NCBI GenBank assembly: GCA_014763895.1
Contig: JACXUM010000013.1
Coordinates: 1 to 53,159, forward strand
DNA: 53,159 nucleotides
Direction of reading: 5' to 3'
Origin: Campylobacterales bacterium
Lineage (GTDB): Bacteria; Campylobacterota; Campylobacteria; Campylobacterales; Sulfurovaceae
Shown here: positions 3,549 to 53,159 of the stretch, in pieces
Numbering within the stretch: the stretch's first letter is position 1
How the letters are laid out: every line of letters starts with the position of its first letter
The notes under the pieces: generated by a model
The model's input: only the letters and a program-made list of their open reading frames with translations
What the model was told of the DNA's origin: nothing
Databases searched by the model: none
Translations under genes and position numbers: made by a program

Positions 3549-5384
3549 TTAGAAACTGTATTTGATCCTTGCATAGACTGATCTGCCCTCAGTCGCATAG
3601 CCATAAACCGATTGGTACTCTTTATCAAAGATGTTTTTGGCATGGATAGAAAGATCGGTATCTTTCATGATCGGTGTACCGAAATTCAAATTCCAGAGGG
3701 TGTAATTACCTGTATCATGTCCAAATTCCTCTCTGTTTCCAATGTATTGGGCATCTATGCCATAATGTATTTGCGAATCGGTGTAATAGTCTACAGAAGC
3801 ATTAAGTGTATCTTTAGGACGTCTGATGAGCGGTGTGCCATCCTCTTTTTCATACTTGAAAAGGTGCGTATAGTTGCCGGAGAAAACAAGGCCGATATCC
3901 GGCATTGTGTAGGTTGAAGCAAGTTCAAGACCTTTGAATTTGGATGTGCCGTCTACGTTGTAATATCCCCAGTTTGCCATATCATAATCAATGTTATCTT
4001 CTATCTTATTGTCAAAATAGGTTACACTGAACCACTCTTTGTAACGGGCATAAAGTTCATATCCATTTGTATAGCTAGGTTTGAGCAGCGTACCGAATAC
4101 CGGATTGGCAAGCTGATAGGAGCTAGGAGTATCATAAGAGGTATAGTAGTTTGCACCGGTTGCAAAACCCGGCAGTGAGGGATGATCGTGTTTGATACCG
4201 ATCTTATAGGTGGTTTTACTCTCAAATGCATCATAATGATCGTGTCTGAGATTGGTTTCAAGCAGTGTTGTTCCGCCTAAAAGATAGGTATTGGATAAAA
4301 ATATCGCTTTATTGCGATAATCGGATTGACTGGCAGGATAGTCATTATATTGGTTGAAACCGTCGATATCTTTATACTCAAATCCCAAAACGGCTTTGCC
4401 GTTGGCATTATAGGTATAGGCATTGATGAAGCTGTACTCTTTAATCAGGGCATGATAGTGGTTGACGCCGTCTCCCCAATAGTCACTGGTTGTATAGTAG
4501 TTTCTATCATAGGTGCCTTTGCTTGCATGAAGTGTTGCTTCGTAGTTACCCTGACTATATCGGTAGTCGGCTGCAAGGTTTTGCTGGTCTGAATCGGCAT
4601 GGCTATAGTCATCATTTGCGCCGTTGGCAGAATACTGGTCATCATACTTTGTTTTAGTTTTGATATGGTTATAGTTGATCATCAGCTTATTGTTTGCATC
4701 AAATGCATATCCAAGTTTGAGGTTGGCATTTTTGTTGGTATAGCCGTCATCCTCAGCATTTCTTGGTGCCAAAGCTGAAAATCCGTCTGTTTTCAGTAGT
4801 GCGCCTAGAAATTGTGCGGTAAATTTCTCATCTTTATATGCAATGTCTGCATCTAAGCCTCTGGTATTATAGGAACCGTATGTCGCAGCCAATGAGCCAT
4901 GTATTCCCTCTTTGGGTGTTTTAGTGATGATATTGATGACTCCGGCACTTGCATTGGATCCCCAGATACTGCTTGAGCCTCCTTTAATGATTTCGATCTG
5001 CTGAATGGCATTGGTTGTAAAAGAGTCAAGCAGGGTACGTCCGTCAGTGGTACTAGGATCGTTCAAACGCATACCGTCTAAAAGAACGAGCACTTTTCCG
5101 GCATCTGCACCTCTAACAAAAAATGTAGTTTGCTGTCCAAGTCCTCCTGCATGTGTCACGCTGATACCTGCAATATGTTCGATCGCTTCTGCAACGCTTT
5201 GGTAGCCTCTTTCTTCTATCTCTTCGGCGGTGATCACTTCGACATTGGAAGTTGTGTTCTGGATGGATTGTTCAGTTTTGTTCGAAGAGACGACTGTAAT
5301 AGGCTCAAGCGTTTCCTCTGCAAGAAGGTTGGTAGCGAAAAGTAATGCCGGGATGAGTGATAGTTTGATACTAGGTTGATTCAT
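3549..5384 (-). CDS. TonB-dependent outer-membrane receptor (BtuB/CirA-like)
   Basis: 611 aa. Signal peptide residues 1-22, TonB-box-like EPITVVSS (about 27-34), then a plug domain (VITAEEIEERGYQSVAEAIE; VRGADAGKVLVLLDGMRLND; EIIKGGSSSIWGSNASAGVI) and a beta barrel ending in an aromatic C-terminus (IKYSF), the usual outer-membrane assembly signal. The plug motif and the small barrel (about 600 aa) resemble vitamin B12 receptor BtuB and related siderophore receptors; the substrate cannot be told from the sequence. The ATG at 5384 has AAGGAATATA upstream. No ABC transporter or TonB/ExbBD genes lie beside it, and no cobalamin-riboswitch B12 box is visible upstream. Confidence 0.88.
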   Translation of the reverse strand: MNQPSIKLSLIPALLFATNLLAEETLEPITVVSSNKTEQSIQNTTSNVEVITAEEIEERGYQSVAEAIEHIAGISVTHAGGLGQQTTFFVRGADAGKVLVLLDGMRLNDPSTTDGRTLLDSFTTNAIQQIEIIKGGSSSIWGSNASAGVINIITKTPKEGIHGSLAATYGSYNTRGLDADIAYKDEKFTAQFLGALLKTDGFSALAPRNAEDDGYTNKNANLKLGYAFDANNKLMINYNHIKTKTKYDDQYSANGANDDYSHADSDQQNLAADYRYSQGNYEATLHASKGTYDRNYYTTSDYWGDGVNHYHALIKEYSFINAYTYNANGKAVLGFEYKDIDGFNQYNDYPASQSDYRNKAIFLSNTYLLGGTTLLETNLRHDHYDAFESKTTYKIGIKHDHPSLPGFATGANYYTSYDTPSSYQLANPVFGTLLKPSYTNGYELYARYKEWFSVTYFDNKIEDNIDYDMANWGYYNVDGTSKFKGLELASTYTMPDIGLVFSGNYTHLFKYEKEDGTPLIRRPKDTLNASVDYYTDSQIHYGIDAQYIGNREEFGHDTGNYTLWNLNFGTPIMKDTDLSIHAKNIFDKEYQSVYGYATEGRSVYARIKYSF

Positions 5385-49798: not shown

Positions 49799-50035
49799 GA
49801 AAGCTGTAACATTGGCACCAGAACAGATGTCTTCATCAAGGAACTATCAGAAATGATCAAAGAGATCATCCGATTTAACGGAGAGCTTTACTTTAACACG
49901 GAAAAACCGGACGGTACGATGAAAAAGCTGACGGATGTCAGTAAATTAAATTCATTGGGTTGGAGGCATCAGGTTGAGCTTCATGATGGTATAATGCAGA
50001 TCCATAACTGGTATGTCGGTAATAGTCGATCGTGA
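49799..50035 (+). pseudogene. fcl: 3' remnant of GDP-L-fucose synthase (copy 1)
   Basis: From 49808 the frame reads NIGTRTDVFIKELSE, then MIKEIIRFNGELYFNTEKPDG, TMKKLTDVSKLNSLGW and GIMQIHNWYV: the C-terminal quarter of Fcl/WcaG. The first three quarters (NAD-binding and catalytic parts) are missing. In their place, between the gmd stop and 49798, is an AT-rich GGTAATTGG-type repeat and an in-frame stop (49796-49798). An ATG at 49853 could start a 60-aa peptide, but it would have no catalytic residues. Confidence 0.8.
49911..49950 (+). repeat. 40-bp direct repeat, copy 1 (in fcl remnant 1)
   Basis: Identical over 40 bases to 51066..51105 (begins ACGGTACGATG, ends GTAAATTAAA). Homology continues beyond with mismatches. 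Recombination between the copies would delete the 1155 bases carrying the MNT-HEPN pair. Confidence 0.9.
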
Positions 50036-50188
50036 ATGGATATCATTTTTAAAAACTTTAGGATGACGAAAGTTTATACAGAGGATCCAATTTTAAATTT
50101 TTAAGCAGGCTGGGTTGTAAATGAGATCAGAAAATTTGTCGCTGCATCTGTCTTTTGGTTTCGTTGCGGTCAGCAAGAGGGTATGGTG
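50036..50188. other. Spacer before the toxin-antitoxin pair
   Basis: 153 bases of AT-rich sequence without a gene. No good TATAAT is visible; ATTTTAAATTTTTAA at about 50090-50104 could be part of a promoter for the MNT-HEPN operon. Confidence 0.35.
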
Positions 50189-50479
50189 ATGAGATTGACT
50201 CCGTATGAGCATGAAATGATCAAAAAAGCCTTTCTCGAAACATTTGAAGAGGGGAAAATCTACCTCTTCGGTTCACGTGTGGACGATACCAAGAGAGGCG
50301 GTGACATCGACCTCTATCTCTGTCCAGACACGAAGTTTGAGAACGAGAGAGAAAGAAGAAGAGCGTTTCTCATCAAGCTGGACGAATACATCGGTGAACA
50401 AAAGATAGATGCCATCATGGCAAAAGATCCAGACAGGCTGATAGAAAAAGAAGCGTTAAGTACAGGGGTAGAACTATGA
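50189..50479 (+). CDS. MNT-type minimal nucleotidyltransferase antitoxin
   Basis: 96 aa. The nucleotidyltransferase motif is GSRVDDTKRGGDIDLYL: Gly28-Ser29 and the metal-binding Asp39 and Asp41, the minimal GSx10DxD core. Proteins of this kind neutralise a HEPN toxin, in the MntA-HepT type by transferring AMP to a tyrosine near the HEPN active site. ATG 50189 is preferred, seven bases after GAGGG; ATG 50183 is too close to it. The stop overlaps the HEPN start by four bases, so the pair is coupled. Confidence 0.88.
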   Translation: MRLTPYEHEMIKKAFLETFEEGKIYLFGSRVDDTKRGGDIDLYLCPDTKFENERERRRAFLIKLDEYIGEQKIDAIMAKDPDRLIEKEALSTGVEL

Positions 50480-50979
50480 GAGATATTCAAAACACTTTTA
50501 TCGAAAAATTGTATGAGTGTCAAAAGCATAAAGAAAAGATAATACTGGCATCGCAAAAGATAGAATATCTTATGCCCCTTAGTGTGGATAGTTATAACCT
50601 GCTTAGCTTTGAGCAAACAAGTTTTATCGATCAGATGATATTTAGATTTACAAAGCTTCAGGATACTATGGGCGAAAAGCTTTTTCCTTCGCTGCTTGAA
50701 CTGATGGGAGAAGAGGTAAAAAGCAAACCATTCATTGATAGACTCAATAGAATCGAAGAGCTTGGAATACTGTACAAAAATGACTGGATGGATCTTAGAA
50801 AAGATAGAAATGAAATAGCCCACGAATACAGCTTTAACCAGGATGAAGTCGTAGAAGGGATCAATACCATCTACAGAAGCATCAACAAACTTTTATCCAT
50901 CTATGACAGCTTTTATGGATACTGCACGGAAAAATTTGATTTTGTCCGCGACAGCGACGTTTTAAAAAGAAATTTATGA
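50476..50979 (+). CDS. HEPN-type RNase toxin (HepT-like)
   Basis: 167 aa, all helical. The motif RNEIAHEY (111-118) is exactly RX4HXY, the catalytic Arg and His of HEPN RNases and the tyrosine (118) that MNT antitoxins modify. With the overlapping MNT gene it forms a two-gene toxin-antitoxin module. Its stop overlaps the ATG of a dead ugd fragment (ATGA), so the module appears to have landed exactly upstream of a former ugd start. It is more AT-rich than the neighbouring sugar genes. Confidence 0.88.
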   Translation: MRDIQNTFIEKLYECQKHKEKIILASQKIEYLMPLSVDSYNLLSFEQTSFIDQMIFRFTKLQDTMGEKLFPSLLELMGEEVKSKPFIDRLNRIEELGILYKNDWMDLRKDRNEIAHEYSFNQDEVVEGINTIYRSINKLLSIYDSFYGYCTEKFDFVRDSDVLKRNL

Positions 50980-51065
50980 AAACCGCCATAGCAGGGAGAG
51001 GATACGTAGGACTGTCAAACTGGATATTGCTCGCCTAGCACAACGAGGTCGTCGCCCTCGACATT
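50976..51065 (+). pseudogene. ugd: 5' remnant of UDP-glucose 6-dehydrogenase
   Basis: Reads MKTAIAGRGYVGLSNWILLA, then a TAG stop at codon 21 (51036-51038; CAG in the intact copy), then HNEVVALDI. It is clearly related to the start of the intact ugd at 53089 (MKIAIAGTGYVGLSNGILLA). After about 30 codons it runs straight into the second fcl fragment. The NAD-binding glycine motif has also changed (GRGYVG for GTGYVG). Confidence 0.85.
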
Positions 51066-51184
51066 ACGGTACGATGAAAAAGCTGACGGATGTCAGTAAA
51101 TTAAACTCATTGGGGTGGAGGTATCGCGTAGAACTTAATGATGGAATTAGAAGCATGTACGAATGGTATACAAAAGAGCACTGA
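51066..51184 (+). pseudogene. fcl: 3' remnant of GDP-L-fucose synthase (copy 2)
   Basis: From an ATG at 51074 it encodes MKKLTDVSKLNSLGW then RYRVELNDGIRSMYEWYTKEH and a stop (51182-51184), the C-terminus of Fcl. It matches copy 1 exactly over 40 bases (51066..51105) and then diverges. It ends like a normal Fcl, while copy 1 ends in NSRS. Confidence 0.85.
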
Positions 51185-51197
51185 TCACGTACCAATC

Positions 51198-51306
51198 GTA
51201 GGGTGGGTTTGCCAACCCACCGGAACGCAGGGAATGGTTGCGACGATCACGGGCTGGTTTTGGTCAACGAATTTGGCCACAGCGTGGGTTGGCAAACCCA
51301 TCCTAC
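51198..51306 (+). mobile_element. MITE/REP-like element, copy A, with 23-bp terminal inverted repeats
   Basis: The left end GTAGGGTGGGTTTGCCAACC plus CAC (51198-51220) is the reverse complement of the right end at 51284-51306 except for one base. The 109-bp element shares a 26-base identical stretch (CAACGAATTTGGCCACAGCG followed by TGGGTT) and the general plan with copy B (52783..52888), in the same orientation. It has no gene of its own, so any movement would need a transposase supplied elsewhere. Confidence 0.8.
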
Positions 51307-51318
51307 AAAACCCTCGTC

Positions 51319-51367
51319 ATCCCCGGGATCCGCACCCCAAGGTCATTTCCTGCAGGCACCCGGGGAT
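51319..51367. repeat. GC-rich inverted repeat (REP-like)
   Basis: ATCCCCGGG (51319-51327) and CCCGGGGAT (51359-51367) are perfect inverse complements 31 bases apart, GC-rich against the AT-rich surroundings. It lies just outside element copy A, and AT-rich ACCAATCAGCAATTTCTCAA follows at about 51391-51410. Confidence 0.55.
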
Positions 51368-51437
51368 CCACAGTCGCAGAGCGACATCACCAATCAGCAA
51401 TTTCTCAAACAGCCTTTACAACAATGACTAAATAGTA

Positions 51438-51464
51438 TATAATTATCCTTATTAAAAAGGATAA
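51438..51464 (+). promoter_or_regulatory. -10 box and ribosome-site hairpin of the ATPase gene
   Basis: TATAAT at 51438-51443; then TTATCCTT (51443-51450) and AAGGATAA (51457-51464), a perfect 8-bp inverted repeat whose right arm contains the ribosome site of the ATG at 51467. Transcripts coming from upstream would fold it and hide the ribosome site; those from this promoter would start inside the left arm and escape. Confidence 0.5.
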
Positions 51465-51466
51465 AA

Positions 51467-52750
51467 ATGAAAGAGTTGTTCCAGAGAGTCATTACGGATT
51501 TTATTGAAAAAGAGATACGCGGCATTTTTTCACGAGAGTACCATATCCCTTTGCACAGTAAAAAAATAGTCTCTTTGATAGGGGTGCGCAGGAGCGGGAA
51601 AAGCTCTATTCTGTTTGATCTGATACAAAAACTCAGGGTGGATACGCCAAGAGAAAACATCCTCTATTTAAATTTTGAGGACGACAGGTTTTTCCCTTTA
51701 AGATTGGAACATTTGGATGCGATACTGGAGGGGTATTTTGAGCTATTTCCTACAAAAAGAGATGAAAAGATATATCTTTTTTTGGATGAAGTGCAGGTTG
51801 TTGAGGGATGGGAGCTTTATGTGCGGAGGATTTACGATACTTTAAACATCGCCATCTTTATCACCGGCTCCAGTGCCAAACTGCTCTCTACCGAGATCGC
51901 CACAAGCCTAAGGGGCAGAACGATCACTTTTGAGATTTTTCCATTTTCATTCAAAGAGTATCTGGCGTTCAAAGGCATTGAAGTCAATCTGCACTCTTCC
52001 AAATCGCTGAGTTTCATCAAAAACGCTTTTGAAAGCTATCTCATAGACGGCGGATTTGCCGAAACGATCAACGAAGAGAGTTTTATCGCCAGAAAAATCC
52101 TGAGCGATTACCTGGAGCTTATTGTGTTTAAGGACATAGCAGAGCGCCACAACATAACAAACACGCCACTGCTTAAACACCTCAATAAATACTGTTTTAC
52201 CAATATTGCTACCCTTGTCAGTTTTACCAAACTCTACAATGATTTCAGATCACAGGGTTTTAAAGTCTCAAAAGATACTATTTTCAACTATATGGCATAC
52301 CTGGAAGAGGCTTATGCGCTTTTTACCGTGCCTATTTTTCGAAACTCCATCAAAGAAGAGCAGCGCAATCCCAAAAAGATTTACGCGATAGACAATGGTT
52401 TTAAGAAGATCTATGACTATGCGATCGGCGAGGATAAAAGCAAGCTTTATGAAAATGTAGTATTTTTATATTTAAGGCGGCAAAGTAAAAATATCTATTA
52501 CTACAAGGGTGTTCAGGAAGTTGATTTTTATGCAAGGCTGGATGACAAAGAGATGCTTGTGAATGTAAGCTATGAGATCAAAGATGAAAAAACGAGACAG
52601 AGAGAGGTCAATGGACTGCTTGAAGCGATGGAATATTTTAAGCTGGATACGGCTTACCTGATCACAAAAGATGAAAAAAGCGAGATCGCTTTGGAGGAGA
52701 AAAGAATTTTTGTGATACCGCTGTATGAATGGATGCTTCTGGAAAAGTAG
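51467..52750 (+). CDS. AAA_14/DUF4143 ATPase, unknown function
   Basis: 427 aa. P-loop ATPase with Walker A GVRRSGKSS (39-47), Walker B YLFLDEVQ (103-110; Asp107-Glu108) and GSSAKLL (134-140), then the C-terminal DUF4143 domain (about 200-370: DYLELIVFKDIAERH; KVSKDTIFNYMAYLEEAYALF; ENVVFLYLRR) ending in a nuclease-like fold region (YYYKGVQEVDFYA). This very common family has a patchy distribution and behaves like a selfish or accessory gene. It is flanked by element copies A and B, which suggests it arrived or could move with them. Confidence 0.88.
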   Translation: MKELFQRVITDFIEKEIRGIFSREYHIPLHSKKIVSLIGVRRSGKSSILFDLIQKLRVDTPRENILYLNFEDDRFFPLRLEHLDAILEGYFELFPTKRDEKIYLFLDEVQVVEGWELYVRRIYDTLNIAIFITGSSAKLLSTEIATSLRGRTITFEIFPFSFKEYLAFKGIEVNLHSSKSLSFIKNAFESYLIDGGFAETINEESFIARKILSDYLELIVFKDIAERHNITNTPLLKHLNKYCFTNIATLVSFTKLYNDFRSQGFKVSKDTIFNYMAYLEEAYALFTVPIFRNSIKEEQRNPKKIYAIDNGFKKIYDYAIGEDKSKLYENVVFLYLRRQSKNIYYYKGVQEVDFYARLDDKEMLVNVSYEIKDEKTRQREVNGLLEAMEYFKLDTAYLITKDEKSEIALEEKRIFVIPLYEWMLLEK

Positions 52751-52782
52751 TCACTGGCAAGCAGGGTGAACGGGAAACTTCT

Positions 52783-52888
52783 GTAGGGTGGTTTTGCCAG
52801 CCCACCGGAAGCTGGGAAATGTTTATTACCGATCACAGGTTGGTTTTGTTCAACGAATTTGGCCACAGCGTGGGTTTGCCAACCCTAC
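52783..52888 (+). mobile_element. MITE/REP-like element, copy B
   Basis: 106 bp, same plan and orientation as copy A: GTAGGGTGG...GCCCACCGGAA at the left, a shared central block (GATCACAGGTTGGTTTTG; CAACGAATTTGGCCACAGCG) and GTGGGTTTGCCAACCCTAC at the right. The terminal repeats match each other less well than in A, so this copy is older or decayed. Confidence 0.75.
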
Positions 52889-53088
52889 ACAATCACCAAT
52901 TACAAATCTGTTACCGACTGTCCGTTATATTTTAGAGAGATTTGATATAATCTCATCTTAGATTTAGGAAGGGGGGATGTCTCTTTGCAGAGAGAAAAAG
53001 TACTTATCGTGTTTGGGACCTACAACATACTATCAACCTTTGACGCTCACCCCTTTGCTCTATTGAATTGTTTTGGAGAAGTGCACAA
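52889..53088 (+). promoter_or_regulatory. ugd: ugd upstream region with promoter and possible leader peptide
   Basis: An extended -10 TGATATAAT (TATAAT at 52946-52951) should start a transcript near 52958, giving a 5' leader of about 130 bases. In it a purine-rich AGGAAGGGGGG precedes an ATG at 52977 that would encode 29 residues to 53066, with a small hairpin TCTCT-TTGC-AGAGA (52980-52993) at its start. The leader ORF may be chance. AT-rich CAATCACCAATTACAAATC at 52890-52908 is another spacer-repeat-like patch. Confidence 0.45.
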
Positions 53089-53159
53089 ATGAAAATCGCC
53101 ATCGCAGGAACCGGATACGTAGGCCTTTCCAACGGCATACTTCTCGCACAGCACAACGA
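53089..53159 (+). CDS. ugd: UDP-glucose 6-dehydrogenase, 5' end (runs off the window)
   Basis: Begins MKIAIAGTGYVGLSNGILLA then QHN, the NAD-binding GxGxxG start of UDP-glucose dehydrogenase, with GGAGAA upstream of the ATG. It would oxidise UDP-glucose from galU to UDP-glucuronate for capsule or O-antigen. Only 23 codons are present. A broken copy of the same start lies at 50976. Confidence 0.85.
   Translation, partial: MKIAIAGTGYVGLSNGILLAQHN

Follow-up and report, generated by a model that had tools for sequence, protein, structure and literature searches.

A study of 2013 listed Sulfurovum NBC37-1 as a carrier of both GTAG and CGTC repeats, and described 24 numbered families as well as GTAG dimers and their association with genes for REP-associated tyrosine transposases (RAYTs) (PMC3733652). 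According to the same study, REP families may hold 20–100 units or even less, and genomes can have lost their REPtrons by deletion. The enzyme TnpA-REP acts on single strands, where it recognises GTAG and makes its cut close by (PMC8266576). We analyzed a stretch of 53,159 nucleotides (the window) from a Sulfurovaceae genome, G000, in which two short repeats, A and B, lie on either side of a gene for an AAA/DUF4143 ATPase. A and B are very probably REP doublets (REPINs) of the GTAG type, separate from each other and non-autonomous, which a RAYT would have mobilised, and the AAA gene stands at the locus independently of them.

Structure of the repeat copies and the gene between them

The two copies, the hairpins of the better preserved one and the gene that they bracket are located as follows.

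51198..51306, plus strand: copy A, a REP doublet (REPIN, head-to-head dimer) of the form GTAG...CTAC, 109 bp, hairpin z −7.1
51198..51221, plus strand: left REP hairpin of A, GTAGGGTGGGTTTGCCAACCCACC
51283..51306, minus strand: right, inverted REP hairpin of A, GTAGGATGGGTTTGCCAACCCACG
51467..52750, plus strand: AAA_14/DUF4143 ATPase gene, 427 codons, with Pfam AAA_14 and DUF4143 matches
52783..52888, plus strand: copy B, a REP doublet with eroded arms, 106 bp, hairpin z −1.3

Both copies consist of a REP, a conserved spacer of about 60 nt and an inverted REP, with the GTAG tags pointing outward, and this layout is repeated as a unit, as expected of a REPIN. Each end of the element is a hairpin of its own, in which the tag GTAGG is followed by the stem arms GTGGGTT and AACCCAC around a tgcc loop; the GTAG tag at one end of a palindromic hairpin is the hallmark of a GTAG REP. 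The 23-nt terminal inverted repeats of A are 96% complementary (one mismatch), so the initial annotation was right to call them near-perfect. It had also described B as decayed, and 12 of the first 24 positions of its arms are indeed mismatched. The coordinates agree with the lengths of 109 and 106 bp and the direct orientation given there. The two copies are about 86% alike, and a genome-wide search matched them to each other at E 1.7e-25. The end motif, allowing up to three mismatches, is expected 0.00 times in shuffled windows, and these statistics exclude chance. An Rfam search of the A/B region gave no match. The suggestion that the ends resemble repeats found across many bacteria is supported, as A and B are GTAG-type REP doublets.

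The reported 427-codon gene between the copies was confirmed by its open reading frame and Pfam matches. It also matches the PADLOC candidate defence family PDC-S01 strongly (E 3e-112). B starts just 32 bp past the stop codon of this gene and A folds very stably, which would suit doublets retained as functional RNA or DNA hairpins, acting as a terminator or protecting the 3' end of the mRNA. This explanation is very unlikely, because the hairpin of the eroded copy B is no longer exceptional, no T-run follows, and close orthologous AAA genes lack a doublet at this place.

Surroundings of the locus

The region from 49900 to 53159, where a polysaccharide cluster ends, is an accessory zone in decay, and zones of this kind probably tolerate REP insertions. 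Its further features are listed below; the names fcl, wecB and ugd are putative and were assigned from translations and neighbouring genes.

50976..51046, plus strand: decayed piece of the ugd 5' end, with 80% identity to the gene start at 53089
51313..51400, plus strand: CGTCATCCCCGG...CCGGGGATCCACAG repeat adjoining A, with a CGTC-tagged look
52967..53030, plus strand: wecB 5' remnant, a synteny anchor for the AAA gene

The CGTC-like repeat beside A has one strong match in G000 and more copies in relatives, and it was not flagged by a strict scan for CGTC hairpins. The decayed ugd fragment is a duplicate of the intact gene start at 53089-53159. Two fragments, at 49911-49992 and 51066-51147, are 89% alike, and both resemble the 3' end of fcl. 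At 50183-50979, a small nucleotidyltransferase gene overlaps a partner without a Pfam match, in an arrangement like that of MntA/HepT-type toxin-antitoxin pairs.

The AAA gene in related genomes

The initial annotation likened the arrangement to a composite element, in which A and B would be the ends that jointly move the AAA gene. The direct orientation of the copies and their close bracketing of the gene agree with this, and among 78 genomes of the genus the bracketing occurs only in G000. However, G036 and G074 argue against it: these are the two relatives in which a close copy of the gene is intact, and the DNA of their AAA gene regions is 97% and 93% identical to that of G000. In both, the gene precedes wecB or its remnant, and in G036 ugd comes next, as in G000. 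Neither genome has a REP doublet at the position of B, and none was found at the position of A, where other repeats are present. The gene is therefore at the same place, beside wecB/ugd, in strains that lack the doublets at both positions, and we conclude that it was not carried by A and B. The initial annotation had named this finding as one of two that would speak against its reading. The REP copy that G036 and G074 do have is in a different position, further upstream after a Fic-like gene; the copy in G036 has 15 nt of left flank in common with B. A third relative, G033, covers the side of B only, as its contig ends within the AAA gene, and there a wecB stub and then part of ugd follow downstream as in G000, without B.

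Other observations agree with the relatives. The locus lacks an outer target duplication, the two doublets differ by 14%, with erosion of B, and no second A-AAA-B unit was found in the 78 genomes. A composite transposon is defined by joint movement of the gene and both ends, with the place of the gene depending on the ends, and this is not what was observed. A control case was provided by G001, where nifV and an acetyltransferase gene of the nif cluster lie between REPINs in the same manner; G004 has the same nif gene order, and its nifB-nifV and post-acetyltransferase junctions, REP-filled in G001, are REP-free. Two small repeats on either side of a gene are thus weak evidence for a composite element, and here such an element is extremely unlikely. 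The search for empty sites, which had been proposed as a check, yielded REP-free junctions at the level of gene order; for A and B, none of the sites in G036, G074 and G033 was clean to the base, since other repeats fill the spaces and the comparison is one of gene-level synteny. The spaces around the AAA gene in the relatives contain TTAGCAC heptamer arrays and CACCAAT/CAATTAA minisatellite tracts (L046:2040-2160 and 3800-3960; upstream in L137).

In four genomes (G000, G036, G074 and G011), which have 1–10 REP matches each, a GTAG REP is found no more than about 2 kb upstream of the AAA gene. The expected number of REPs near the gene is 0.0009–0.013 per genome, so they were observed there more often than expected in these four, in a comparison that was made post hoc and in which G036 and G074 stand for a single ancestral site. 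None of four more distant orthologues has a REP near the AAA gene. There is a slim chance that the link between GTAG REPs and this candidate defence gene is non-random, in which case REPs might aid the spread of such genes by recombination or RAYT action. The sole REP found in G011 (L139:50-73, C218) is about 155 bp upstream of the AAA orthologue.

Copies of the doublet and their insertion sites

The genome-wide copy count that had been called for proved low. GTAG REPs occur at about four loci in G000, namely A, B, a REP pair on C30 and a single REP with one mismatch on C13, so the high copy number that is typical of REPINs, though not required, is not seen in this genome. On C30 (L039:2604-2881), two single REPs with GTAG inward are 230 bp apart, 3' of an RNase R-like gene. 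Full-length relatives with the same spacer were found at other sites in three other genomes: G036 (C16, C70, C119 and C122), G001 (C36) and G074 (C49). The copy-bearing records include two metagenome-assembled Sulfurovum sp. genomes. G010 contains 48 REPs of this type, many of them in head-to-head pairs, compared with 0 for a reversed-pattern control.

Target-site duplications had also been proposed as a check, and no flush duplication was present at any of the eight copies examined, as expected for the Y1/HUH mechanism of REPINs. In a comparison of G036 C70 with G001 C119, the flank showed 91% conservation and the site itself was rearranged. Small elements with long terminal inverted repeats could also be MITEs moved by the DDE transposase of an insertion sequence with GTAGGGTGGG ends, but this is exceedingly improbable here, given the eight copies without target duplications, the fact that each end is itself a hairpin that also occurs singly, and the RAYT genes that adjoin the same hairpins.

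RAYT genes and mobilisation

Within the genus, RAYT genes adjoin GTAGGGTGGG/GTAGGGTGCG hairpins in at least six genomes (G022, G007, G017, G010, G028 and G036), and in G022, G007, G010 and G028 at least one hairpin is present on each side of the RAYT. The stem and loop differ by genome, with GTAGGGTGGGTTTTCC in G022, GTAGGGTGGGCATTCC in G007 and GTAGGGTGCGTTTGCC in G010. The RAYT proteins of the genus have an HxH motif and a conserved tyrosine, and both of the two that were scanned exceed the cut-off of NCBIfam REP_Tyr_transpos (NF047646). In G074, a RAYT cut by the contig edge neighbours a REP with the same stem as A and B.

The proposal of the initial annotation that a REP-type transposase elsewhere mobilised the repeats is therefore supported for the genus, where RAYT genes adjoin hairpins of the same type, but no intact RAYT was found in G000, whose assembly is 99.84% complete. 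Genomes that combine a RAYT with flanking copies of the same REP, a typical but not required feature, were seen elsewhere in the genus, and G000 is not among them. The RAYT relative on C41 of G000 is C-terminally truncated and scores 58 bits against a cut-off of 80; it was rejected as the driver because no GTAGGGTGGG hairpin flanks it, and an IS200-like pseudogene on C33 was rejected for the same reason. The truncated gene (L041:2727-3543) lies between two direct copies of TTTCTCGTCCCACCTCTCCGAAGGTGGGATGCATAGGCAATCGTATATGCTTCCC, which belongs to a different repeat family. As no intact RAYT was found, the mobilising enzyme is absent or unassembled in G000. With only the truncated RAYT and the IS200-like pseudogene, the family looks stranded in this strain, and the handful of repeats makes it look like a low-copy relict there.

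For the REP doublets A and B, we infer both the enzyme and the movement. A RAYT (TnpA-REP, a Y1/HUH single-strand transposase) would recognise GTAG and the hairpin on single-stranded DNA, and would carry the whole doublet, by copying or by moving it, into intergenic DNA, leaving no target duplication. The spaces between genes to the left and right of the AAA gene would then simply be where A and B landed or survived.

Comparison with known systems

The Campylobacterota (Sulfurovum) set analyzed here allows REP hairpins and RAYT genes to be paired across species, and it includes one Sulfurovum lineage in which the repeats seem to have persisted longer than the enzyme. The closest described system is that of the GTAG head-to-head REP dimers (Di Nocera 2013, PMC3733652), which share with A and B the GTAG tag, a stem of 7–8 bp, a 4-nt loop, and outward GTAG tags 20–100 bp apart with a conserved spacer. 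A and B differ from these dimers in their own stem, GGTGGGTT/AACCCACC, their own spacer and their low copy number. The REPINs of Pseudomonas (Bertels and Rainey 2011, PMC3116915) are likewise REP doublets that form a mobile unit linked to a RAYT; by comparison, G000 has few copies and no intact RAYT was found in it. Genes in related genomes exceed the cut-off of the RAYT / TnpA-REP family (NF047646) and adjoin the same hairpin type, whereas G000 has only the C-terminally truncated relative below the cut-off. In summary, A and B represent, in a new strain, a kind of repeat that is ordinary and already described. Their family assignment is well supported, their mechanism is presumed, and the composite reading is rejected.
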